DNA of 56,470 nucleotides from an uncultured Nitrososphaerales archaeon (lineage in GTDB: Archaea; Thermoproteota; Nitrososphaeria; Nitrososphaerales; JACAEJ01). The notes beneath the pieces were generated by a model. It worked only from the letters and a program-made list of their open reading frames with translations, was not told where the DNA came from and made no database searches. Of the stretch, positions 16,023 through 48,343 are shown piece after piece. The stretch lies in assembly GCA_938091495.1 (NCBI GenBank), contig CALLJF010000032.1, positions 1-56,470 on the forward strand. Reading direction: 5' to 3'. A program made the translations under genes and the position numbers. Positions within the stretch are counted from its first letter, which is position 1. The number at the start of each line of letters is the position of its first letter.

Positions 16023-16787
16023 TTGATAAATTTGTCATCAGAAATAAAGATCATAGGAATAAAAGGAATCCCTGAAGTTAAACTTGGCGATGATCTGGCT
16101 AACTTAATCATTGATTCAATTCAAAAACAAGGCATCAAGATCATGAATAAAGATGTAATAGTTATAACTCATAAGATAGTCTCTAAGGCTGAAGGAAGGC
16201 TTGTTGACTTAAAAAGGATAAAACCATCAGATTTCGCTTTAAAGATAAGTAAGCGTAGAAAAAAGGATCCTAGAATGGTAGAAGTCGTTCTTCGTGAGGC
16301 AAAAAGAATAGTCAGGATGGAGAGAGGAGTGATAATAGCCGAAACTAGGCACGGATTCATCTGCGCCAATGCTGGTGTTGATAAATCTAATGTAAAAGGC
16401 GAAGACATGGTCTCTTTATTACCCATTAATCCTGATAAGTCTGCTAAACTTATTAGAGATGGTATAAAGAGAAGATTAAATGCCGATGTGGCTGTGATAA
16501 TATCAGATACCTTTGGCAGACCTTGGAGAGAAGGGCAGACAAACATTGCTATAGGAGTCGCTGGGTTAGAGCCAATTTTGGATTACAGAGGAAAAAGGGA
16601 TAGTTATGGCTATACTCTTAAAGTGACTGCCATAGCTATAGCTGATGAACTAGCATCGGCAGCAGAGCTTGTTATGGGAAAAGTAGGAATGGTGCCTGTA
16701 GCGATAATAAGAGGCTATCAATACACTGAAGGAGAAGGCTCTGTCAAGTCTCTTATAAGACCTCGTTCAAGAGACCTCTTCAGCTAA
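16023..16787 (+). CDS. cofE: Coenzyme F420-0:L-glutamate ligase
   Basis: It adds glutamate residues to F420-0 with GTP, completing the F420 side chain. N-terminal IIGIKGIPEVKLGDDLANLI, the metal/GTP segment THKIVSKAEGRLVDL, ISDTFGRPWREGQTNIAIGVAG and the C-terminal ADELASAAELVMGKVGMVPVAIIRGY are all family hallmarks. At 254 residues it is the single-domain archaeal form, without the nitroreductase domain of mycobacterial FbiB. TTG start, with a TATA-like AAATAAACATAAAAG upstream. It converges on cofC. A divergent paralog occurs in the methanofuran gene set at 41960-42796. Confidence 0.95.
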   Translation: MINLSSEIKIIGIKGIPEVKLGDDLANLIIDSIQKQGIKIMNKDVIVITHKIVSKAEGRLVDLKRIKPSDFALKISKRRKKDPRMVEVVLREAKRIVRMERGVIIAETRHGFICANAGVDKSNVKGEDMVSLLPINPDKSAKLIRDGIKRRLNADVAVIISDTFGRPWREGQTNIAIGVAGLEPILDYRGKRDSYGYTLKVTAIAIADELASAAELVMGKVGMVPVAIIRGYQYTEGEGSVKSLIRPRSRDLFS

Positions 16788-35844: not shown

Positions 35845-37431
35845 TTATAAAAAAGCATTATTTACTTTGCTGAAAAGTGGCATGTCTTGAAGGTAGCTCT
35901 TACCAGTGTCAAGGGCTATCTGAGCCTTCTGCAACTCACTTCCTAAATAGGCTGCATGATCGTGAAGAGAGACTAACCCTAAATCTATTATCGTCCTGTA
36001 AATGTCTTCAGCGTTCTTTCCTTTTATTATCAGACTATGTTTATCAGCTTTGTAGCTTGGATAGTACAATGCCACGATCTTGTTTTCATCTCTATCCAAT
36101 AATATCTTAAAGGATCCTTTTGGGTCCAATCTTCTCATTCTAGCTTTCTTCGATTCTACAATCTTCACGCCTTCTTCAAACCTTCTATCATAAGGTTCTT
36201 CCTTTGACTTCTTATCCTTCATGATCATTAAATCAAGAGCCATATCCTTTGGAACTGATGATCTCTTTTTCGCTAAGAACATCATTTTTGAAGCCAAGGA
36301 TAGCTCTCTGACACTACCCTTCGCTTTATTGCTCACTTCCGTAGTTAGAAGTATGCCAGCCCCTAGCTCAGATGCGATGCCAGCAAGCAAAGCATTTACA
36401 CCTACTGTATCGGCATCTGTCAATTCTGTGATATTGCCAACGCCCATTAGAAGAGGAATATTTGGCTCTTTTTTTATGAATTCATAAAAGGCTACTACGG
36501 AGTCTAAAAAGCCTGGTGAGATGATAGGATCAAGGATCAAATCAGCAATGATTTTCTTCATCTCTAAATCCCTAGCCTTTTTTATGTTCTTCCTGATGAG
36601 ATTAACCCTCTCAATAGGCTCTTTAGGAAAAAGCTGTCTACTATGATCTGTAGGGATAACTATCACAGCTACATCTGAAGCAAAGGACGCCATCTCCTTT
36701 ACATTACTACCATCGACACTTAGGATCAAATCTGCGCCTGCTGAAACTGCAGCTTCAGCCTCTTTAGGATCTAGAGTGTCTATACTGATCAAAGAATTTA
36801 CAGCAGATTGAACGGCTTTAACTGCTCTTTCAGCATCATAAGGTCTAGACTCGCCAGCTATCATGCCTATGTCTATTATGTCAGCTCCTGATAAAGCATA
36901 GTATCTTGCCTTCTTTATTATTTCTTCATTAGTCAGTCTAGGAGCATCAACTATCTCAGCCATTATCCTTGAAGGGAAATCTTTTCCTATCGCTAAATCC
37001 TTGATGAGCATGTTCCAAGGATTCTTTAACAAATCTTCCTTGCGCTTTTCTACAGCCTTTATCTCTTCGATAGCCCTTCGCCTTAGCTCCTCTTTTAAAA
37101 GATCATCAGCAGGTAAAGTCTTTGATAGCTTGACTTTTTCTATCATATCAAGCACTAAAGGTATATCGGCAGCGTATCTGGGACCTTTAAAAGCAGGGAT
37201 GCCAACCTCATCTATCAAAGATACATCCCCAGAGATGAGCCCCGGGATCATTATCATATCAAAATCCTTAATCTTTCTTGCCTTTAACTCACGAAGTATG
37301 TATCTTGGTGTTAGCAGAGAGGCTACAGATATAGGTAAATCTTTAACTTCAAACTCTACATTGCTCTCACTAGCATATTTCCTTACCGAATTTTTAGCCA
37401 GCTGTCCTGTTACGAGAAGGACTCTCATCAA
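35845..37431 (-). CDS. Dihydropteroate-synthase-like protein (H4MPT-associated)
   Basis: A 528-residue protein of the archaeal DHPS-related family. The central TIM-barrel portion resembles dihydropteroate synthase: SRIMAEIVDAPRLTNEEIIKKARYYALSGADIIDIGMIAGESRP, then LISIDTLDPKEAEAAVSAGADLILSVDG. An extra N-terminal domain of about 170 residues and a C-terminal tail of about 100 residues distinguish it from true FolP. It probably acts in assembling the pterin-arylamine part of H4MPT; this is suggested by family distribution and by mtd, mptA and mptD next door, not shown directly. Confidence 0.85.
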   Translation of the reverse strand: MMRVLLVTGQLAKNSVRKYASESNVEFEVKDLPISVASLLTPRYILRELKARKIKDFDMIMIPGLISGDVSLIDEVGIPAFKGPRYAADIPLVLDMIEKVKLSKTLPADDLLKEELRRRAIEEIKAVEKRKEDLLKNPWNMLIKDLAIGKDFPSRIMAEIVDAPRLTNEEIIKKARYYALSGADIIDIGMIAGESRPYDAERAVKAVQSAVNSLISIDTLDPKEAEAAVSAGADLILSVDGSNVKEMASFASDVAVIVIPTDHSRQLFPKEPIERVNLIRKNIKKARDLEMKKIIADLILDPIISPGFLDSVVAFYEFIKKEPNIPLLMGVGNITELTDADTVGVNALLAGIASELGAGILLTTEVSNKAKGSVRELSLASKMMFLAKKRSSVPKDMALDLMIMKDKKSKEEPYDRRFEEGVKIVESKKARMRRLDPKGSFKILLDRDENKIVALYYPSYKADKHSLIIKGKNAEDIYRTIIDLGLVSLHDHAAYLGSELQKAQIALDTGKSYLQDMPLFSKVNNAFL

Positions 37432-37532
37432 ATCTCCTCTATGATATAATCTAAGTAATGAGTTCTTTCTTAAAAGTATGCTAATCCTGTCTACTGATTC
37501 TGATGATTGGATTTCGCTAAACCAGAATATTG

Positions 37533-38384
37533 TTATTCTCCAGGTTTTCTTGGTTTCTCAATCAGTTTCCTTTTTTGCATCACTGTCCCATCACTATGAT
37601 GAGGCGTGCGAAGAATAGCATCACCATTCTTTTCGATCTCTCTTGCTTCGTCAGCAAGCATTGAAGCAGTGCGCATCATTTCATGGGCAGCAGCAACCAA
37701 AGCTGTATAACGTTCCCATTCTTTTACCATAAAGCATCCTTCAACGCTCAAGTCAGCCACCCTTCTCGCTACTTCATAGGCAGCCATAGCTTTTACTCTT
37801 GCGTATGGATTTTGAAAACCTGCTGCATTTACCGCTTTCTCTTTATCGATAACAATCCTTGGCAAAGAAGGAGTTTCGCCTTTCTTAAAAGCGTCTATGA
37901 GTTTGTCTATTTCAGTGCATATTATGTTGAAGGCTCCTGTTATAGACAGGACTTTTATTAGATCAGCATTAAATAGAGCCATCTCTGCAGGGTCTAAGAA
38001 CTCTTTTCTTGCTCCTATCATGGAGTCCGCTTCGACAATTATGTAACCTTGACCCATGTCCTCTATCTGCTTGGTTACTTTTTTGGCAGGGCTATCCGAA
38101 ATAACGATTAAAGGAATTCCTGCCTCTTTTAGAACTTCTCGAATTTTACTCGGTCCAGGAAGAGCTGCATTTGGACTTGCTGTTACTACGAAGTTTGGCT
38201 TGTTTTCAACCATTTTCTTGCTAATTTCTTCTGCTTGATCAACTCCCATCTTTGCGCCACTCGTTACAACCCTGACATCTATGTCTTCTCTTTCAGCCCT
38301 TTCATCAAGTAATAGTTCGAGCAAAGGGGCAGAGGCAATATTGCCTACCTTTACAAAACCAATCTTTACTACCATATTTTTCAC
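37533..38384 (-). CDS. mtd: F420-dependent methylene-H4MPT dehydrogenase
   Basis: It reversibly oxidises methylene-H4MPT to methenyl-H4MPT with F420. VKIGFVKVGNIASAPLLELLLDERAEREDIDVRVVTSGAKMG at the N terminus and TASPNAALPGPSKIREVLKEAGIPLIVISD are diagnostic for Mtd, which has no close relatives. Full length at 283 residues. It reads away from mptA with a shared intergenic region of about 130 bases. It is one of the two C1-transforming enzyme systems encoded in the window, with Fwd. Confidence 0.96.
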   Translation of the reverse strand: MKNMVVKIGFVKVGNIASAPLLELLLDERAEREDIDVRVVTSGAKMGVDQAEEISKKMVENKPNFVVTASPNAALPGPSKIREVLKEAGIPLIVISDSPAKKVTKQIEDMGQGYIIVEADSMIGARKEFLDPAEMALFNADLIKVLSITGAFNIICTEIDKLIDAFKKGETPSLPRIVIDKEKAVNAAGFQNPYARVKAMAAYEVARRVADLSVEGCFMVKEWERYTALVAAAHEMMRTASMLADEAREIEKNGDAILRTPHHSDGTVMQKRKLIEKPRKPGE

Positions 38385-38484
38385 TCCACTACCTACTATA
38401 ACAGAATATATAATGATATTGCTACTGACAATTAAAATCTGAAAATGATCGATGCAAATATTCGACTAAAATACTTAGCAACAT

Positions 38485-38517
38485 ACATATATAAGTTGGA
38501 ACTTTCTTAAAGAAAGT
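38485..38517 (+). promoter_or_regulatory. mptA promoter with perfect palindrome at the start site
   Basis: ACATATATAAG (38485-38495) is a TATA box. About ten bases later ACTTTCTT-A-AAGAAAGT (38501-38517) is a perfect inverted repeat covering the predicted transcription start and the GTG at 38516. A repressor site controlling pterin synthesis is inferred. The transcript is likely leaderless. Confidence 0.55.
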
Positions 38518-39460
38518 GTCTCCTATGGAATTAGAGTTACCTGATATGCATGAAAAATACCCAGAAGTTACCCTATCTATTAACAAGGTCGGGGTTGTTA
38601 GCGTGAAGATGCCCATAGGTTACGTAACGCTAAAAAATAAGCCTGTGATAATAGTTCCAGTCTTTGATGCCTTCATAGACTTGCCTTCTAAACAGAAGGG
38701 CATTCATTCATCAAGAAACTATGAAGTTATTAACGGTGTCTTAAGCAGATACGTTGGGAAGACTTACAAGCTAGAAGATGTCTGTGTTGCAATGTCTAAA
38801 GAACTGCTGGAAAAGCACGAGTATGCAACTCGATCTGAGGTGAGAGCGAGAGGAGAAGCCATCTTCAAGCAAAGAACGCCAAAGACAAAGAGTTTAAGCT
38901 ATGAGTCTTTTAAGATTATAGCAAAAGCCATTGCAGAGAGAAGATCCAATGGCTCTATCAATACTAGAAGAATGATAGGAATAGGCTTAACAGGAATAAC
39001 TGCTTGTCCTTGCGCAAGAGAAATTGTAAAAAAGATTGCAGAGCAGGAGATGGAAAAGCTTGATCTCACAAAAGACAAAATAAAGAGGATCTTGGAGAGA
39101 ATTCCTATAGCAACCCACATGCAACGAGCCTACGGTTCAGTAATTGTTGAAATACCTGAGTATGTAGAGCTGGAGGCTACACGTTTAGTGCAGATAATCG
39201 CAGATTCTATGAGCTCATCAACCTTTGAACTTCTAAAAAGATCTGATGAGGCTGAATTGGTCATACATGCAACATCTAACCCAAGGTTCGTTGAAGATTG
39301 TGTTCGCTATATGATGTGTTACTTTGTAAAAGAGTTTCCCGACTTTCCTGACAACATTCACCTAGTCTTCAAAGTAAGGAGTATGGAGAGCATACACCAG
39401 CATGATTTAATAGCTGAAAGAGTTGCAAGCTTGGGCGAGATAAGAAAAGAATTAAGTTAA
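38516..39460 (+). CDS. mptA: GTP cyclohydrolase MptA
   Basis: The first enzyme of H4MPT pterin synthesis, converting GTP to 7,8-dihydro-D-neopterin 2',3'-cyclic phosphate with Fe(II). The family is the COG1469/FolE2 type: KQKGIHSSRNYEVINGVL carries metal-binding histidine, GITACPCAREIVKKIAEQEM the conserved cysteines, and RIPIATHMQRAYGSVIVEI a further active-site segment. 314 residues. GTG 38516 or ATG 38525 may start it. mptD follows by 13 bases. Confidence 0.95.
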   Translation: MSPMELELPDMHEKYPEVTLSINKVGVVSVKMPIGYVTLKNKPVIIVPVFDAFIDLPSKQKGIHSSRNYEVINGVLSRYVGKTYKLEDVCVAMSKELLEKHEYATRSEVRARGEAIFKQRTPKTKSLSYESFKIIAKAIAERRSNGSINTRRMIGIGLTGITACPCAREIVKKIAEQEMEKLDLTKDKIKRILERIPIATHMQRAYGSVIVEIPEYVELEATRLVQIIADSMSSSTFELLKRSDEAELVIHATSNPRFVEDCVRYMMCYFVKEFPDFPDNIHLVFKVRSMESIHQHDLIAERVASLGEIRKELS

Positions 39461-39473
39461 GTGTAGAAAAATT

Positions 39474-39872
39474 ATGAAAAGTATAGAAGAAGTTGTTAGA
39501 AAATATTTTGACAAGAGCGTTACAGACAGAGAAAGAGCAATATTTGAAGGAGGAATAGCTTTAGGCGCAATATATCATCAGTTTACAGGCATACCCATAT
39601 CCAAAGATAAAGATGTCATAAAAGCTCTAGAAGAAGCCATAAGCAAAAGTATGAAATTACAACCCCATAGAGAGAGCGTAAAAGCGAAGATAGATGCTGA
39701 TACGATAAAAGCTGGGAAGAGTCATGCTTATGACTATGAAACTCTAAAAGGAAGGCATCTTGACGTGAGAGTAAAGACAAGGTATGGCAATGCTAAAGCA
39801 ACTGTAAGGATGAGATACATTCCTGAGATAGATTTCACGCTCATGTATATAGAGAAGTTAGAGGAAACTTGA
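39474..39872 (+). CDS. mptD: Dihydroneopterin aldolase MptD
   Basis: It cleaves 7,8-dihydroneopterin to 6-hydroxymethyl-7,8-dihydropterin and glycolaldehyde in archaeal folate/H4MPT synthesis. FEGGIALGAIYHQFTGIPIS and the downstream GKSHAYDYETLKGRHLDVRVKTRYGNAKATVRMRYIPEIDFTLMYI are the DUF372 family pattern. 132 residues. It follows mptA directly, leaving only the cyclic phosphodiesterase MptB unrepresented between the two steps in this window. Confidence 0.92.
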   Translation: MKSIEEVVRKYFDKSVTDRERAIFEGGIALGAIYHQFTGIPISKDKDVIKALEEAISKSMKLQPHRESVKAKIDADTIKAGKSHAYDYETLKGRHLDVRVKTRYGNAKATVRMRYIPEIDFTLMYIEKLEET

Positions 39873-41204: not shown

Positions 41205-41966
41205 ATGGAGAGGGCTTACATGAAGAATACATTGAGACTGTTAGTCAGCATAAGTGATGCCGATGAAGCCTTGAGTGCATTCAAAGGAGGTGCGGACATA
41301 ATCGACATTAAAAATCCAAAAGAAGGAGCCTTAGGTGCAAACTTTCCTTGGGTAATTGCCAAGGTTAGAAAAATTCTAGGAGACAAGGCTCAGATAAGCG
41401 CAACAATAGGAGACATGCCTAACCTCCCAGGAACAGCCTCTCTCGCTGCTTTGGGCGCTGTGCATTCAGGCGCAAACTATGTAAAGGTTGGCTTATTTGG
41501 AACGAATTCTTTTTACGATGCTCTTTACATGATGAAAAACGTGGTTAGATCTGTCAAGGATCATGAATCTAAAGTGAAGGTCATAGCTTCAGGCTATGCT
41601 GACTATGCTGAATTTAAAGGTCTAAACCCCTTACTTTTACCAAGTATAGCATACAAGGCTGAAGCGAATGGAGTTTTGATAGATGTAAAGAATAAAGGAG
41701 TGTCAAAATTATTCGACTTTCTTGATTTATCCCAGCTTCAAGCTTTTGTTGATGGATCACATAAACTCGGTCTTACAGTAGCACTAGCTGGCGGACTGGG
41801 AAAAGAAGATGTAATTCGAATTCAAGAATTAGGTGCAGACATAATAGGTGTAAGAAGGGCTGTTTGTGAAAAAATTAACGATTGCTTTGGCAGAGTCCAA
41901 GAAAACTTTGTTTCAGATTTTGTAAGAGAGATAAGACTTCTTCAAAATCATAAAAGCTATCACTGA
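41205..41966 (+). CDS. mfnB: (5-formylfuran-3-yl)methyl phosphate synthase MfnB
   Basis: It condenses two glyceraldehyde 3-phosphate molecules to the furan precursor of methanofuran. LRLLVSISDADEALSAFKGGADIIDIKNPKEGALGANFPWVI is the DUF556 signature, with the Schiff-base lysine region DIKNPKEG, followed by GLFGTN and KVIASGYADYAE. 253 residues with a TIM-barrel pattern. ATG 41205 is the ORF start and ATG 41220 (MKNTLRLLVSI) is closer to usual family length. Its 3' end overlaps the convergent CofE paralog by seven bases. Confidence 0.94.
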   Translation: MERAYMKNTLRLLVSISDADEALSAFKGGADIIDIKNPKEGALGANFPWVIAKVRKILGDKAQISATIGDMPNLPGTASLAALGAVHSGANYVKVGLFGTNSFYDALYMMKNVVRSVKDHESKVKVIASGYADYAEFKGLNPLLLPSIAYKAEANGVLIDVKNKGVSKLFDFLDLSQLQAFVDGSHKLGLTVALAGGLGKEDVIRIQELGADIIGVRRAVCEKINDCFGRVQENFVSDFVREIRLLQNHKSYH

Positions 41967-42796
41967 TTTAATGAGCGAACTATTACTATCGGGTAATGAT
42001 CCACTTCATCAAGCATCTCCCAAGTAACGCTAGTTAAACTTGCTCCAAACCTCTTTGCCATGTCCCATGCCGTTCTTCCTGCCCCAGAACCTCGAGCCTT
42101 ATGAGCCAATTGAGCAATATCTAATGCTTCGTTAACGTTTATGTTTGAGCTAATTGCCAAAGGTGTTGCTCTAGACTTAAGCCTAAAGGCTCTTCCTATT
42201 ACGTATGCTACGAAACCTCCAATGGATAATATACCTTTTATTGGCTTTGGGCATGGTGTTATGTGCAAATTGCGCCAAGAATAAGTCATATCTGTATCAA
42301 CTATCATTACACGTAGTTTCTTTGCAGTTTTTTGAATTTCAGCCTGAATTCTTATCACTTCTCCATAAGGATCGTCAAGAGGCAAGCATGCATAAGTGAG
42401 AGGAACATTGCTAACGTCTATCCCACCTTCTGACCAATTTCTTAAGGCTTGGAGAAATCCAGCATAGATTAATGCTAATTGCTTATGACTTGCTCCTTCT
42501 TTTATAGGGTAATTTCTTAGACGATAAACATTCTTGGTCTTTAAATGGCATAATCTGGCTAGTATGTATCCCCACACATATCTTATCCAAAAACGAGCTA
42601 TGAATCTTGCGAGTAAACTAGGTTTGATCTTGCTTTCATCTATTAACCTCCCTTTTGCCACTGATATGGCTTTTTCAGATAGTACTACTATATCTCCATC
42701 TTCAACCTTATCTATTATGGAGCTTTTTATGATGCTTATGTAATCATCTCCAGGCTTCCAATACTTTGTCTTAACCGGTATTGCTATGTGTTTCAT
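41960..42796 (-). CDS. CofE-like ligase paralog in the methanofuran operon
   Basis: A 278-residue divergent homologue of F420-0:glutamate ligase. EDGDIVVLSEKAISVAKGRLIDES parallels CofE's KDVIVITHKIVSKAEGRLVDL, and IVDTDMTYSWRNLHITPCPKPIKGILSIGGF parallels the nucleotide/metal segment ISDTFGRPWREG. An inserted stretch of about 60 residues (FIARFWIRYVWGYILARLCHLKTKNVYRL...) is absent from true CofE. It starts six bases after mfnE on the same strand. A glutamyl or other amide-forming step on methanofuran or H4MPT is my inference; true cofE is elsewhere in the window. Confidence 0.8.
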   Translation of the reverse strand: MKHIAIPVKTKYWKPGDDYISIIKSSIIDKVEDGDIVVLSEKAISVAKGRLIDESKIKPSLLARFIARFWIRYVWGYILARLCHLKTKNVYRLRNYPIKEGASHKQLALIYAGFLQALRNWSEGGIDVSNVPLTYACLPLDDPYGEVIRIQAEIQKTAKKLRVMIVDTDMTYSWRNLHITPCPKPIKGILSIGGFVAYVIGRAFRLKSRATPLAISSNINVNEALDIAQLAHKARGSGAGRTAWDMAKRFGASLTSVTWEMLDEVDHYPIVIVRSLNQ

Positions 42797-42802
42797 GATG
42801 AT

Positions 42803-43468
42803 CTAAACTGGGTTTATCTTTGTGTAAATATCCCTCTCACCTTCTAGTATGCTTCTTATCCTACTAGGGTGCTTTCCATTCACTACATAGCAGGTAAGTT
42901 GCTTTTCAATCAAAATTCTTGGTAAGAATTCATCTACACAGCCAAGTTTTTCCTTCAATAGTTTGTTTGCAGATATGCTCCTGAACATTCTTACATCATT
43001 TTTCTTAGGGTCTGCTGTGAAAATTCCATCAACATCCTTTGCTAAAATCAACTTTTCAGCCTTTAATGATGAGGCTATGAAGGCTGATATGGAGTCAGAA
43101 GTGACTCTCCATGAATGCTCTAAAGGGTCTGAGGAAAACACGATCTTCGATGGGAGGATTATGGACAAGATTCCTCTTTTTGAGGCTTTTAATGCGTTCT
43201 TGAGGCTATAGGTTGGAAGAGCTTCTTTCATAATATCCTTCAAAAGTAATCCATACTGATCCATAGCCAATATGGCCATTTTATGTGCAATCTCATCTGA
43301 TATTTTTAATTTATCATATAAATGTCTCACGATATCTGCAAATCTCCCTCCCCCAGGCACAATTATTATGGGGTAACTTTTAGAAAAGGTGATTAATTCT
43401 TTGCATAAACGAACTAAACTATTTTGATCTTCAGCCAAGCTCCCCCCTATCTTTATTACAACAATCAT
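42803..43468 (-). CDS. mfnE: [5-(aminomethyl)furan-3-yl]methyl phosphate kinase MfnE
   Basis: An amino-acid-kinase-family enzyme that phosphorylates the furan phosphate to the diphosphate in methanofuran synthesis. VIKIGGSLAEDQNSLVRLCKEL is the phosphate-binding N terminus and IIIVPGGGRFADIVRHLYDK the second glycine loop, followed by family-specific ISDEIAHKMAILAMDQYGLLLKD. 221 residues, the length expected for MfnE. It precedes the CofE paralog by six bases. Confidence 0.9.
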   Translation of the reverse strand: MIVVIKIGGSLAEDQNSLVRLCKELITFSKSYPIIIVPGGGRFADIVRHLYDKLKISDEIAHKMAILAMDQYGLLLKDIMKEALPTYSLKNALKASKRGILSIILPSKIVFSSDPLEHSWRVTSDSISAFIASSLKAEKLILAKDVDGIFTADPKKNDVRMFRSISANKLLKEKLGCVDEFLPRILIEKQLTCYVVNGKHPSRIRSILEGERDIYTKINPV

Positions 43469-43518: not shown

Positions 43519-44514
43519 TCATATTGTTTTTCTGTATTGATAAGTTGTTTGATCATCTATAACATAGAAAGTATTTTCTTTCTCCTCTTTCAAGTACAGA
43601 ATTGGCTTATTCAGTGTGTCTGCTACCTTTGCCAAATCTTCTAAAGTCTTCATTTCTATTATCGTATTTGTCTCTGGAGGCTTTTGGGTTGTTTCTGCCA
43701 TTATCTCTTTGTATGGGGCTATGATCTTTGCTATAGTTTTTCCTTTAGGTTTCGTTTTTATGTGGAACCCTGTTGCTATGGTTAGACCTGAAGCTGAGGC
43801 TACGGCAAATATTATGGAAGCGATTCTCAGGTTTGCCATCCATGGTTGTAGGACTTGTTCTGTTCGTATGATTTTTTCTATGCTAGTTTTCAAAGGCCAT
43901 ATAGTAATGTATCTACCTAATGCAGGGTCTTGTACGAAGGCTACAGTTAGCTGTGGATTAAAGGTATCTTCTATTGTGCTTGCTGTTGTGTTGGCAGTTA
44001 TATGAATCGTAGGTCTTATGTTTAATCTATAATTTGTTGAGCTTATTCCTGTCTCATTATCTATTTTTTCTTTGAGTTGTGCTATTTCATCAGGATTTAC
44101 CTGAATTGTAAAGTTCAGATCATCTGTTAGTTGAAGTATTTCTTGTGTTTCTATTACAGTAAGGTTTCTTGCCCATCTTCCAGGCGATTCCAGCTGAACT
44201 GAAACTTGGTGCTGAACTATTAAGTTTGTCGGCTCTGGATTGCTTGTGAATGTGTAGGTGAAGGTGATGTTTATGTAGCTTACTATATTTGTGTAAAGGA
44301 TTCCTTCATCTTTTGGCGTTAGAGTTGTCGTATTATATATGATGTTTGGTTTTAGTTGTGCAATGTAGTCGTATTTCCCATCATGCTGGTAAGTGCCCAG
44401 GATCGTGGTTTTGTATATTGGTTGTTGATATGCGTAGTAGGTGCTTATTATTGAAACCAATAATAGAACTGATAAGATGATGAGTAAGGCTGTGATCTTT
44501 TTCCTTGTTACCAT
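43519..44514 (-). CDS. DUF5305-family membrane-anchored protein
   Basis: A 331-residue protein with an N-terminal anchor (ITALLIILSVLLLVSIISTYYA), a long extracellular beta-rich region rich in Asn-x-Thr/Ser, a second helix (LRIASIIFAVASASGLTIATGF) and a cytoplasmic tail of about 80 residues. I recognise the DUF5305 pattern, which often occurs near archaeal signal peptidases. It interrupts mfnF and mfnE, and its coding strand is unusually A- and C-rich (many ACA/ACT Thr codons) compared with neighbours, which may indicate insertion. Function unknown. Confidence 0.75.
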   Translation of the reverse strand: MVTRKKITALLIILSVLLLVSIISTYYAYQQPIYKTTILGTYQHDGKYDYIAQLKPNIIYNTTTLTPKDEGILYTNIVSYINITFTYTFTSNPEPTNLIVQHQVSVQLESPGRWARNLTVIETQEILQLTDDLNFTIQVNPDEIAQLKEKIDNETGISSTNYRLNIRPTIHITANTTASTIEDTFNPQLTVAFVQDPALGRYITIWPLKTSIEKIIRTEQVLQPWMANLRIASIIFAVASASGLTIATGFHIKTKPKGKTIAKIIAPYKEIMAETTQKPPETNTIIEMKTLEDLAKVADTLNKPILYLKEEKENTFYVIDDQTTYQYRKTI

Positions 44515-44570: not shown

Positions 44571-45659
44571 TTACAGCGGAAAGGCACTAAAATTTGAGAA
44601 TTTAATCTTCAAGCCTAAAGACTCTACTACCATCAATGCTACTGCAAATGAAGGAGTTGCAACAGATGCATCCTTACCGATGATTTGCGCCAAGTCGATA
44701 ATACTCTCAAACTTTAACCTTTCTGCAGATTTTCTACCCAAAAAGCCTCCCCCTATTCCAGTCAAGACAAGAGAGAGTCTATCCTTGACAAGAGTTCTTA
44801 TCGAGTTGTATACTTGCATAAGCCCATCTGCTATCCTATCTGACTGTTTCATATAGATATAATTCGCCATGGCAACTATCTCCTCTTCTTTCAGCATATT
44901 CGTGTCGGCACAGACTATTCTCGCAAGCCTAGATAGAGCTTCTTTTCTTGTCTTTCCTCTTTTATCTGCAGTCTCAGTCTTGTACTCGTCTTGACTTATA
45001 TTTCCAAGGATCAGATGCACGTCTCCAGATAAAGCAAAGAGTTCTGATGATATTCTAGTCATTATACCTCTAACAGGAACCGCCTTCACAATAGTGGCAA
45101 CATTCGTTCTTAGAGCGCCGGTGTAGATAAGCTCGCCAGTAGCCAGTCTCTCCAGATCTGTTTTTCCCCTTGCCATTATCCTCCCCTTGAGTATAGGAAT
45201 TACGTCGGTAGTAGTGCTACCAACATCTAATAGGATGCAGTCTTTTACCCATTTAGAGACTAGCCAAGCCGTACTAACCCAGTTAGCACTGGCTACTCTT
45301 AGATACTCATCTCTTGCCTCTTCAACACTCTTTAAGTTAGTGTTAACATCGAGCACGAATACCTTCTCTTTTGGAAAGACTTCTTTAACGCAATCTAATA
45401 CATGGTTTACCCCTTCTTTCTTTGTTTCATAAACATCAGAAAGCTCGGCAGTCATGGTTAAGCCTATAGCATCAATAAAAGAGTCTTCGGCTATCTCTCT
45501 TTTTAACTCGTTCAAAACGATAGGGAGTCTTTCCTTCCCTTCAATCCATATCGGGAAATAACGAATTATCGTCTTAATTCTAAATACTTTTTCATCCTTG
45601 ATCTCTATCAAAGTTGTTTTGATATTAGCTCCACCTATGTCCCAGCCTACGATCTTCAT
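44571..45659 (-). CDS. mfnF: Methanofuran synthesis protein MfnF (hydantoinase/oxoprolinase family)
   Basis: It couples the aminomethylfuran diphosphate to gamma-glutamyltyramine to form the methanofuran core. MKIVGWDIGGANIKTTLIEI is the ASKHA-type phosphate-binding start, CILLDVGSTTTDVIPILKGR the second phosphate motif and LVLTGIGGGFLGRKSAERL the third. The same family was long annotated as an H4MPT-linked C1-transfer protein in methylotrophs. 362 residues, full length. It lies six bases after mfnD. Confidence 0.92.
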   Translation of the reverse strand: MKIVGWDIGGANIKTTLIEIKDEKVFRIKTIIRYFPIWIEGKERLPIVLNELKREIAEDSFIDAIGLTMTAELSDVYETKKEGVNHVLDCVKEVFPKEKVFVLDVNTNLKSVEEARDEYLRVASANWVSTAWLVSKWVKDCILLDVGSTTTDVIPILKGRIMARGKTDLERLATGELIYTGALRTNVATIVKAVPVRGIMTRISSELFALSGDVHLILGNISQDEYKTETADKRGKTRKEALSRLARIVCADTNMLKEEEIVAMANYIYMKQSDRIADGLMQVYNSIRTLVKDRLSLVLTGIGGGFLGRKSAERLKFESIIDLAQIIGKDASVATPSFAVALMVVESLGLKIKFSNFSAFPL

Positions 45660-45664
45660 TTACC

Positions 45665-46885
45665 TCACCTTAATTCAACTATACTTCGAAGTTTATGCCT
45701 TGCCTTCTTGAACAGAGTTTTAGCTTCTTCGATATCTTTTCCTTTTGTGGCAAGCAAAGCATAATTATCATCATGAAGAGGAAAGGGAGGGGTTACAACT
45801 TCCTTCATCGAATAGGTCCTTTTAAGAAGATTTTCTCCTAACCTTGGCAGAACTTCTTTCGAAAAGATAGAACAGCCAGAGTAATCAAATCCTTCTGGCA
45901 ATTCATCACAAAGACAAGCTTTAACCATGGCTTTGGCTAAGTTCAAGTTCGATACTCTTCTCAAACCGACATAAGATACGGTTAATCGAGGATTGATCTC
46001 AATCAGTAAAGGTCCACTGTTTGACAGGATCAAATCGACCCCAACATATCCTCTTAATCCTCTAAAAAGTTCTACAGCCTTTTTAGCAACATGGAAAGCT
46101 TCATCTTTCAATTCATGGTCAAAAGGCACTATACCACCAATATAGCTTGAAGCCTTTTCAGGTGTATTAAGATTGATTATTTGCAAGTTCAGAGTAAGAG
46201 GTATCGCTTTTTTTCCATTTGCGATCAAACTTACGCTTGCATTTATGCCTTTTACAAACTCCTGTATTAAATATGTATTAGTTTTTGCCTCTTCTTTTAC
46301 CTTGTTTATCGCCATTGGCAATTGTGAAAATTTTTTCACAATACTTAATCCTTGACATCCGATGCCTTCCTTGGGCTTGACTATCACAGGGAAACCTATG
46401 TTCTCAATTATCTTTTGACCCTTCTTAACATCTTCGTCAATTACAACTTCATCAGTTTTTGGAACGGGTAATCCGTTTTCCTTTAATCTCTTATAGAGTT
46501 TGAGTTTGTTGCATATAGGATTTATCGAATCAGCGCTACAATTTAAAGAATCGATACTCAATTCTTCACTCAGTCTTAGGAAGTTGGAAAGTATTCCCTC
46601 AGTCTCTGGCGCTATTAAAAGATGGGCATCAGCATGTCTCAACAAATTCAAAAACTCAGTTTTGAGTTTTTCCTGGGAGTTCACTAAATGAATCTCATTC
46701 GCTCTTAATGGTGGTTGAAATGGAGCAAGCCTTGAATCTAAAAGAGTGTCAGTTTGATGACCAGCATCTCTAAAATCGCTCAAAGCTGAGCAGAGCATGC
46801 CGTATCCTTCGCTTAAGATGTTTGATGGTAAATTCTTGTCTGAGAATCCACCTCCAGACACGTATTCGAATAGAGCGACCTTCAA
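45665..46885 (-). CDS. mfnD: Tyramine--L-glutamate ligase MfnD
   Basis: An ATP-grasp enzyme joining tyramine to the gamma-carboxyl of glutamate in methanofuran synthesis. MKVALFEYVSGGGFSDKNLPSNILSEGYGMLCSALSDFRDAGH is a distinctive N terminus of MfnD and its methylotroph homologues. The ATP-grasp domain shows FPVIVKPKEGIGCQGLSIVKK and GPLLIEINPRLTVSYVGLRRV with metal-binding Glu and Asn. 406 residues, somewhat longer than the methanogen enzyme. It is the first gene of a minus-strand run with mfnF, DUF5305, mfnE and the CofE paralog. Confidence 0.9.
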   Translation of the reverse strand: MKVALFEYVSGGGFSDKNLPSNILSEGYGMLCSALSDFRDAGHQTDTLLDSRLAPFQPPLRANEIHLVNSQEKLKTEFLNLLRHADAHLLIAPETEGILSNFLRLSEELSIDSLNCSADSINPICNKLKLYKRLKENGLPVPKTDEVVIDEDVKKGQKIIENIGFPVIVKPKEGIGCQGLSIVKKFSQLPMAINKVKEEAKTNTYLIQEFVKGINASVSLIANGKKAIPLTLNLQIINLNTPEKASSYIGGIVPFDHELKDEAFHVAKKAVELFRGLRGYVGVDLILSNSGPLLIEINPRLTVSYVGLRRVSNLNLAKAMVKACLCDELPEGFDYSGCSIFSKEVLPRLGENLLKRTYSMKEVVTPPFPLHDDNYALLATKGKDIEEAKTLFKKARHKLRSIVELR

Positions 46886-47617: not shown

Positions 47618-48343
47618 ATGAAGGTTATCCCTGTCATAGATATAATGGGAGGAGTTGCCGTCCATGCTAAAGGTGGTCATAGAGATCATTATCAACCAAT
47701 AAAGAGCCAATTATGTGATACTTCTAATCCGATAGATTTGGCTTTAGCCTTTAAAAAAAGATTCGGGTTTGAAGAATTGTATATTGCGGACTTGGATAGC
47801 ATTATGGGGATTGGTAGCAACACGGATATGCTTAGGAGAATCTATGAATCAAGCAATATGAAGATCATAGTAGACTCAGGAGTAAATGATGTTAAAAAAG
47901 CAAGAGAACTTCTTCAAGCTGGAGTTGAAAAGATTATCGTTGGGACTGAAACGTTAACAAGTTACGCACCACTAAAGAGTATTCCAAAATTTGTCAATTA
48001 CGAACACGTTATCGTTTCTATAGATGTAAAAGATGGTAAGATTCTCTCAAAATCTAAAGAAATAGTTAGACTAAGTCCTGAAGGATTAGCAAAAAGACTA
48101 GAATTGATGGGCATTAAAGAGATCATAGTATTGGATTTGTCGAGAGTGGGTAGAGAGTTAGGAGTTAACGTTGACTTGATAAGAGGAGTTTTGAAATCTG
48201 TTAGTATTCATACTATTATAGGAGGAGGCATCGGAAATATCGATGATATTATTTTACTTCGTGATATGGGTGTCTCTGGAGTACTAGTCTCTACAGCCCT
48301 TCATAATTCAAAGATAAAAAAAAGGGATTTGTTGAGATTATAG
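47618..48343 (+). CDS. HisA-like TIM-barrel protein associated with C1-carrier genes
   Basis: A 241-residue (beta/alpha)8 protein of the HisA/HisF-related family found in methanogens and methylotrophs. MKVIPVIDIMGGVAVHAKGGHRDHYQPIKSQLC is the N-terminal strand with catalytic aspartate and a GxR-like phosphate segment; IVDSGVNDVKKARELLQAGVEKIIVGTETL and IIGGGIGNIDDIILLRDMGVSGVLVSTALH carry the phosphate-binding loops. No his genes surround it; mfn and fwd genes do. A sugar-phosphate isomerisation in H4MPT or methanofuran synthesis is plausible. True histidine HisA is less likely. Confidence 0.82.
   Translation: MKVIPVIDIMGGVAVHAKGGHRDHYQPIKSQLCDTSNPIDLALAFKKRFGFEELYIADLDSIMGIGSNTDMLRRIYESSNMKIIVDSGVNDVKKARELLQAGVEKIIVGTETLTSYAPLKSIPKFVNYEHVIVSIDVKDGKILSKSKEIVRLSPEGLAKRLELMGIKEIIVLDLSRVGRELGVNVDLIRGVLKSVSIHTIIGGGIGNIDDIILLRDMGVSGVLVSTALHNSKIKKRDLLRL

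Follow-up and report, generated by a model that had tools for sequence, protein, structure and literature searches.

Close to the genes for methanofuran synthesis (mfn) in a 56,470-nucleotide stretch of DNA from an uncultured Nitrososphaerales archaeon (the window, meaning the whole stretch that was analysed) lies a gene for a protein resembling CofE, and the question is what this protein, here called CofEx, does there when the window also carries a true cofE (Table 1). An earlier note on the sequence had recognised both genes and proposed that the mfn-linked copy does another job than CofE, as a missing glutamyl ligase for methanofuran or for tetrahydromethanopterin (H4MPT). As for archaeal methanofuran, the enzymes that attach its glutamates from the second onwards were said in 2021 to ‘remain to be identified’ (PMC8141765), and a search of the open literature found no earlier description of the CofEx clade.

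The window holds a combined methanofuran/H4MPT gene neighbourhood

On the minus strand the gene order is mfnD, mfnF, a DUF5305 gene, mfnE and CofEx, the run in which the earlier note had placed it, with 6 nt between the mfnE stop and the CofEx start, and the convergent mfnB gene overlaps the CofEx stop by 7 nt. Of the models used for these assignments, the broader MfnF model TIGR03123 was matched above its cut-off and the equivalog models for MfnD, MfnE and MfnF below theirs. The mptA, mtd and DHPS-like genes of an H4MPT block lie 2.5-6 kb from CofEx, and the window is thus a combined methanofuran/H4MPT neighbourhood; the 132-aa open reading frame in that block gave 0 matches to NCBIfam families at E 1e-15. 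The locus was also present in G005 and L036, and Candidatus Methylarchaceae HK01M is a member of the source organism's family.

Table 1. Features of the window referred to in the text, in window coordinates
Feature	Coordinates	Strand	Basis
True cofE, comparison paralogue	16023-16787	+	TIGR01916 295.9 bits
DHPS-like TIGR00284 gene, H4MPT block	35845-37431	-	
mtd, H4MPT block	37533-38384	-	
mptA, H4MPT block	38516-39460	+	
132-aa ORF, H4MPT block (35845-39872)	39474-39872	+	
mfnB	41205-41966	+	PF04476 242.9 bits
CofEx (CofE-like ligase candidate, 278 aa, ATG start)	41960-42796	-	open reading frame
mfnE-like amino-acid-kinase-fold kinase	42803-43468	-	NF040622 197.6 bits, cut-off 300, by far the best family
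DUF5305 protein	43519-44514	-	PF17231 70.3 bits
mfnF	44571-45659	-	TIGR03123 342.4 bits, above cut-off; also NF040623
mfnD-like ATP-grasp ligase	45665-46885	-	NF040722 148.9 bits; ATP-grasp_3
HisA/HisF-family protein near mfnD	47618-48343	+	TIGR00734 173.4 bits

The DUF5305 gene was seen in two loci only, that of the window and that of its nearest relative, L034, where it sits between mfnF and mfnE; the other mfn-linked loci were without it and, being outside the conserved set, it was rejected as a partner of CofEx. A HisA/HisF-family (TIGR00734) gene, by comparison, recurs beside mfnD/mfnF (L043, L049, L053, L060, L073, L082, L087, L093 and L095). As it shares its Pfam family, PF00977, with Orf17 of M. 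extorquens, which is required for methylofuran synthesis in a role that is not known (PMC8141765), the HisA/HisF-family gene near mfnD may be the archaeal counterpart of Orf17.

Elsewhere in the genome mch, an MptN-like ligase gene and ftr adjoin each other (G000:C3:13730-16916), the ligase gene lying between the other two (C3:14826-15680). A third PF01996 protein is encoded on contig C39 (G000:C39:2661-3302, also in L002) and is a divergent CofE-type paralogue (TIGR01916, 197.5 bits).

CofEx retains one half of CofE

CofEx matched PF01996 (F420_ligase) with 72.4 bits against a cut-off of 25, covering only positions 2-155 of the 218 in the profile, and the same family was matched by 52/52 CofEx members of alignment A2 (E <= 0.01). 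It scored 46.9 bits against the CofE equivalog TIGR01916, well under the cut-off of 180.65, and 14.9 bits against TIGR04132 (FolC2), where the cut-off is 350. In profile-profile alignment CofEx followed CofE over residues 1-169 (probability 99), after which the alignment ended. The predicted structure (AlphaFold2, using 52 window and locus sequences) had a pLDDT of 93 and a pTM of 0.90, and a Foldseek search of the PDB with this model returned five CofE chains as the only matches at E <= 0.001 (best 7.6e-10, to 2phn, with a TM by target of 0.64), so that CofEx, as modelled, has the CofE fold.

The core motifs of CofE which the earlier note had reported were borne out, as the CofE ‘GIDxSN ... 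DT’ region aligned to EGGIDVSN/DTD of CofEx, the family motifs EGGIDxSN and D-T/S-D standing opposite NAGIDxSN and DT of CofE. D127 and D167 stand opposite D109 and D150 of AF2256, which we take to be metal ligands, and both are among the 20 positions that were invariant across 66 CofEx sequences, very divergent ones included (W13, P15, S40-E41-K42, E54, W75, H104-K105, S122-E123, D127, N130, P139-L140, D167, D169, T211, G238 and G240). This conservation, together with orthologues at 46-94% identity, ruled out a chance open reading frame or a pseudogene. The inserted segment that had been noticed was found to comprise about 20 extra residues relative to CofE, which the profile alignment places in three pieces between positions 74 and 121; in the model they belong to helices 61-82, 87-94 and 98-111, and the helical insert carries the invariant H104-K105. 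None of the acceptor-side motifs of CofE (RPFRxGQ, IGxAG and ADExAxAAEL) occurs in the CofEx sequences. The simplest reading of this anatomy, taken from the sequences, would be a conserved chemistry joined to a new acceptor site.

CofEx is a separate clade linked to mfn and ftr genes

In the tree CofEx and CofE were the two sides of one branch with a support of 100 and long stems, and CofEx is a separate conserved clade. Its members come from Nitrososphaeria, Bathyarchaeia, other Thermoproteota, Brockarchaeota and Baldrarchaeota (Asgard). One scan of genome contigs gave 53 loci, none of them euryarchaeal, with strict patterns that were not aimed at Euryarchaeota. One locus (L079) is titled Deltaproteobacteria, yet it fell within the Bathyarchaeia part of the tree and is probably a mis-binned contig.

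CofEx lay directly after mfnE in 13/14 Nitrososphaeria loci, the exception being L039 (G012), in which mfnF is on another contig, and the order mfnF-mfnE-CofEx was also found in another family (L091). Among deeper Thermoproteota CofEx adjoins ftr in L087, L088, L098 and L099, and by coordinates also in G157, G211, G303 and G346, and in Baldrarchaeota (L038) CofEx is followed by ftr. An MptN-like rimK gene adjoins CofEx in L087 (with a 1-nt overlap), L088, L090, L097 and L065. In most Bathyarchaeia loci CofEx had no mfn neighbour, and the genes found there (acetyl-CoA synthetase alpha, inositol phosphate synthase, HtrA, a Bud32-like kinase, TldD and Suf) gave no functional lead. CitG-like (PF01874) genes were seen near or beside CofEx in several lineages (L100:5046-6059, L092:3023-3994, L065:4754-5797 and L077:6845-7786).

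CofEx co-occurs with C1 genes and is independent of F420

The earlier note had suggested mapping the co-occurrence of the gene with mfn and with cof genes, and when this was done CofEx was linked to mfn, Ftr and Mch; the contrary pattern that the note had named, linkage to F420 genes only, was not what was found. In 300 Thermoproteota genomes, counted with no correction for phylogeny, CofEx was present in 72, Ftr and Mch in 74 each and MfnF in 49. CofEx and Ftr occurred together in 66 genomes, CofEx alone in 6, Ftr alone in 8 and neither in 220 (Fisher 8e-50, phylogeny-uncorrected), with identical counts for Mch (66/6/8/220), while CofEx and MfnF occurred together in 42, alone in 30 and 7 respectively and neither in 221 (p 1.6e-24, likewise uncorrected). 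At least one of Ftr, Mch and MfnF was present in 72/72 CofEx genomes. Among 61 relatives CofEx and MfnF were each found in 17 and together in 16, and in the lone relative with CofEx only (G002) a contig end falls in mfnE.

Despite this strong association MfnF and MfnB were both absent from 30 CofEx genomes, and in 28 CofEx genomes Ftr and/or Mch remained where MfnB, MfnF and beta-RFAP synthase were all absent (for example G061, G070, G139, G196, G254 and G330), showing that canonical methanofuran synthesis is dispensable for CofEx. Both Ftr and Mch were present in 23 of these genomes (16 of the 23 being listed as >=95% complete) and one of the two in the other 5. Such organisms may salvage the carrier or have undescribed routes for its synthesis, and an enzyme adding the tail late would be kept in either case. 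The beta-RFAP synthase marker misses divergent forms, as no such synthase was recognisable in 9 genomes that have MfnB, MfnF, Ftr and Mch. Where that synthase was found without Ftr, Mch and MfnF (76 genomes), CofEx was present in 0/76. Nor is CofEx universally needed, since G084 and the family f38 (G310, G315 and G324) have MfnB, MfnF and Ftr without it. An MptN-like ligase was present in most of the CofEx genomes tested, this genome included; G084 and G091 were seen to lack both CofEx and a high-scoring MptN-like ligase. Many Bathyarchaeia-type genomes had a second, divergent Ftr-like protein that did not reach the Ftr cut-off (scores of about 210-245 bits), and in some it was the sole Ftr-like protein.

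In three members of genus g111 (G233, G267 and G346) CofEx is the only PF01996 protein, with no CofE and no CofD, and these genomes carry MfnB, MfnF, Ftr and Mch, whereas a fourth member (G215) has neither CofEx nor Ftr, Mch and MfnF and has kept beta-RFAP synthase. The families f2, f8 and f10, which from genome size and order we infer to be ammonia oxidisers, show the reverse: in seven of their genomes CofD and two CofE-type proteins are present and CofEx is absent. CofEx thus tracks methanofuran/methanopterin C1 metabolism and not F420, and its identity as an F420 ligase or a duplicate CofE was rejected both by this co-occurrence and by the loss of the second-half motifs. Annotation from the PF01996 match alone would mislabel CofEx as an F420-0 ligase and would falsely suggest F420 synthesis in genomes without CofE and CofD, such as those of g111.

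Proposed function and alternative acceptors

CofEx is probably the enzyme that makes the glutamate side chain of methanofuran or of a methanopterin-type carrier. From its resemblance to CofE and from its gene company we infer a ligase activity, glutamate as the donor, the nucleotide, the acceptor and the position and number of the glutamates added. Belief and doubt are about evenly matched in our proposal that TACK archaea and Baldrarchaeota have in CofEx a ligase of CofE fold which adds at least one L-glutamate to the side chain of a C1 carrier, most likely to methanofuran-Glu1. Somewhat more tentatively, TACK and some Asgard archaea could have in it the missing ligase for the side-chain glutamates of methanofuran, unrelated to the bacterial MyfA/MyfB and extending the tail from the carboxylate and not the amine. 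Methanofuran is favoured because CofEx shares an operon with mfn genes and because it was absent from all the genomes that have beta-RFAP synthase without Ftr, Mch and MfnF; pointing against methanofuran are the Bathyarchaeia loci without mfn genes and the pairing with an MptN-like ligase in some lineages. Of the earlier claim of a missing methanofuran/H4MPT glutamyl ligase, the tie to methanofuran/H4MPT genes stands, while methanofuran is a candidate acceptor: in view of the MptN-like pairing and of the 28 genomes that have none of mfnB, mfnF and beta-RFAP synthase, CofEx may act on H4MPT or on salvaged cofactors.

The 2024 structures of CofE (PMC10861534) were described as having two Mn ions and, at the dimer interface, a pocket for glutamate, the chemistry proceeding through an acyl phosphate. 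If CofEx works alike, the free carboxylate of the acceptor would be phosphorylated by a nucleoside triphosphate (GTP in CofE) on two divalent metals, and the amino group of a glutamate in the neighbouring pocket would attack the resulting acyl phosphate to form the amide and release phosphate. In CofEx this chemistry would fall to the conserved nucleotide/metal half, and the new acceptor would be bound by the replaced second half with the helical insert. Methanofuran chains in Euryarchaeota grow from the amine of glutamate, whereas CofE chemistry extends the carboxylate of the acceptor, and so a CofE-like mechanism predicts that the tail is extended from the carboxylate. The glutamate would then be attached differently in the methanofuran product, as by MyfB in methylofuran, the tail of which is extended from the carboxylate and not from the amine (PMC8141765).

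A serious rival, though in our judgement an unlikely one, is that CofEx glutamylates H4MPT to give a sarcinapterin-type or longer tail, with the MptN-like ligase perhaps acting before or after it as CofF acts after CofE. H4MPT ends in 2-hydroxyglutarate on a phosphodiester, much as F420-0 ends in phospholactate, and CofE chemistry would therefore transfer easily. The MptN-like rimK genes beside CofEx in five loci, the retention of CofEx in 28 genomes without mfnB and mfnF, and the nearness of mptA, the DHPS-like gene and mtd in the window all fit this, and there is a precedent in CT611 of Chlamydia, a CofE-family protein that can replace FolC in a complementation test with an E. coli mutant of folC (PMC1971073). 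The same 28 genomes, however, also lack beta-RFAP synthase, the 76 that have it without Ftr, Mch and MfnF have no CofEx, and the tightest linkage of CofEx is to mfnE and mfnF; moreover most of the CofEx genomes tested already have the MptN-like ligase, and the glutamylation step of H4MPT may thus be taken.

That CofEx is a late ‘trapping’ ligase, glutamylating methanofuran and/or H4MPT regardless of whether the cell makes or imports them, in the manner of folylpolyglutamate synthase in folate auxotrophs, seems quite improbable. It would account for the genomes in which MfnB, MfnF and beta-RFAP synthase are missing although CofEx is present together with both Ftr and Mch (23 genomes) or with one of the two (5 genomes), and FolC is retained by several folate salvagers (PMC1971073), but no transporter was identified, those genomes could use unrelated enzymes of synthesis and the beta-RFAP synthase marker misses divergent forms. 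Action on F420 or a deazaflavin derivative, or a function other than that of a ligase, is suggested by the homology to CofE and is very improbable, as g111 has CofEx without CofE and CofD, the F420-type genomes of f2, f8 and f10 have no CofEx and the CofE motifs RPFR, IGxAG and ADExAxAAEL are absent. Glutamylation of methanofuran, the reading that we prefer, narrows the TACK candidate for the later methanofuran glutamates to a single conserved gene with a chemical prediction attached, and CofEx is apparently a conserved, undescribed ligase family of C1 metabolism in TACK archaea and Baldrarchaeota.

Comparison with known systems

With CofE (AF2256; PDB 2phn and 7uld; TIGR01916) CofEx has in common the predicted fold, the N-terminal nucleotide/metal half and the GIDxSN and DT motifs, at about 21-22% identity to the solved CofE chains in the fold alignment. 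It differs in an acceptor half unrelated by sequence, in the extra helical insert, in linkage to mfn/ftr and not to F420 genes, and in forming its own clade (branch support 100). FolC2 (TIGR04132, Chlamydia CT611) is likewise a CofE-family protein recruited to glutamylate another C1 carrier (PMC1971073), but it belongs to other organisms and another pathway, and CofEx scored so far under the TIGR04132 cut-off that a chlamydial FolC2-type identity was rejected.

MptN and CofF, which are RimK-type alpha-glutamate ligases, also glutamylate C1 or redox cofactors, and MptN-like genes adjoin CofEx in some lineages, but their fold differs from that of CofEx, and since MptN-like ligases and CofEx are found together in the same genomes, CofEx is disfavoured as a functional replacement of MptN. 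With MyfA/MyfB, the methylofuran glutamate ligases of methylotrophic bacteria, CofEx would share its proposed role, the addition of glutamates from the second onwards to a furan C1 coenzyme, in an mfn-type gene setting (PMC8141765). MyfB resembles MptN (PMC8141765) and is of the ATP-grasp type, whereas CofEx has the predicted fold of CofE, and if our proposal is true this fold would serve a third cofactor type in addition to F420 and folate.
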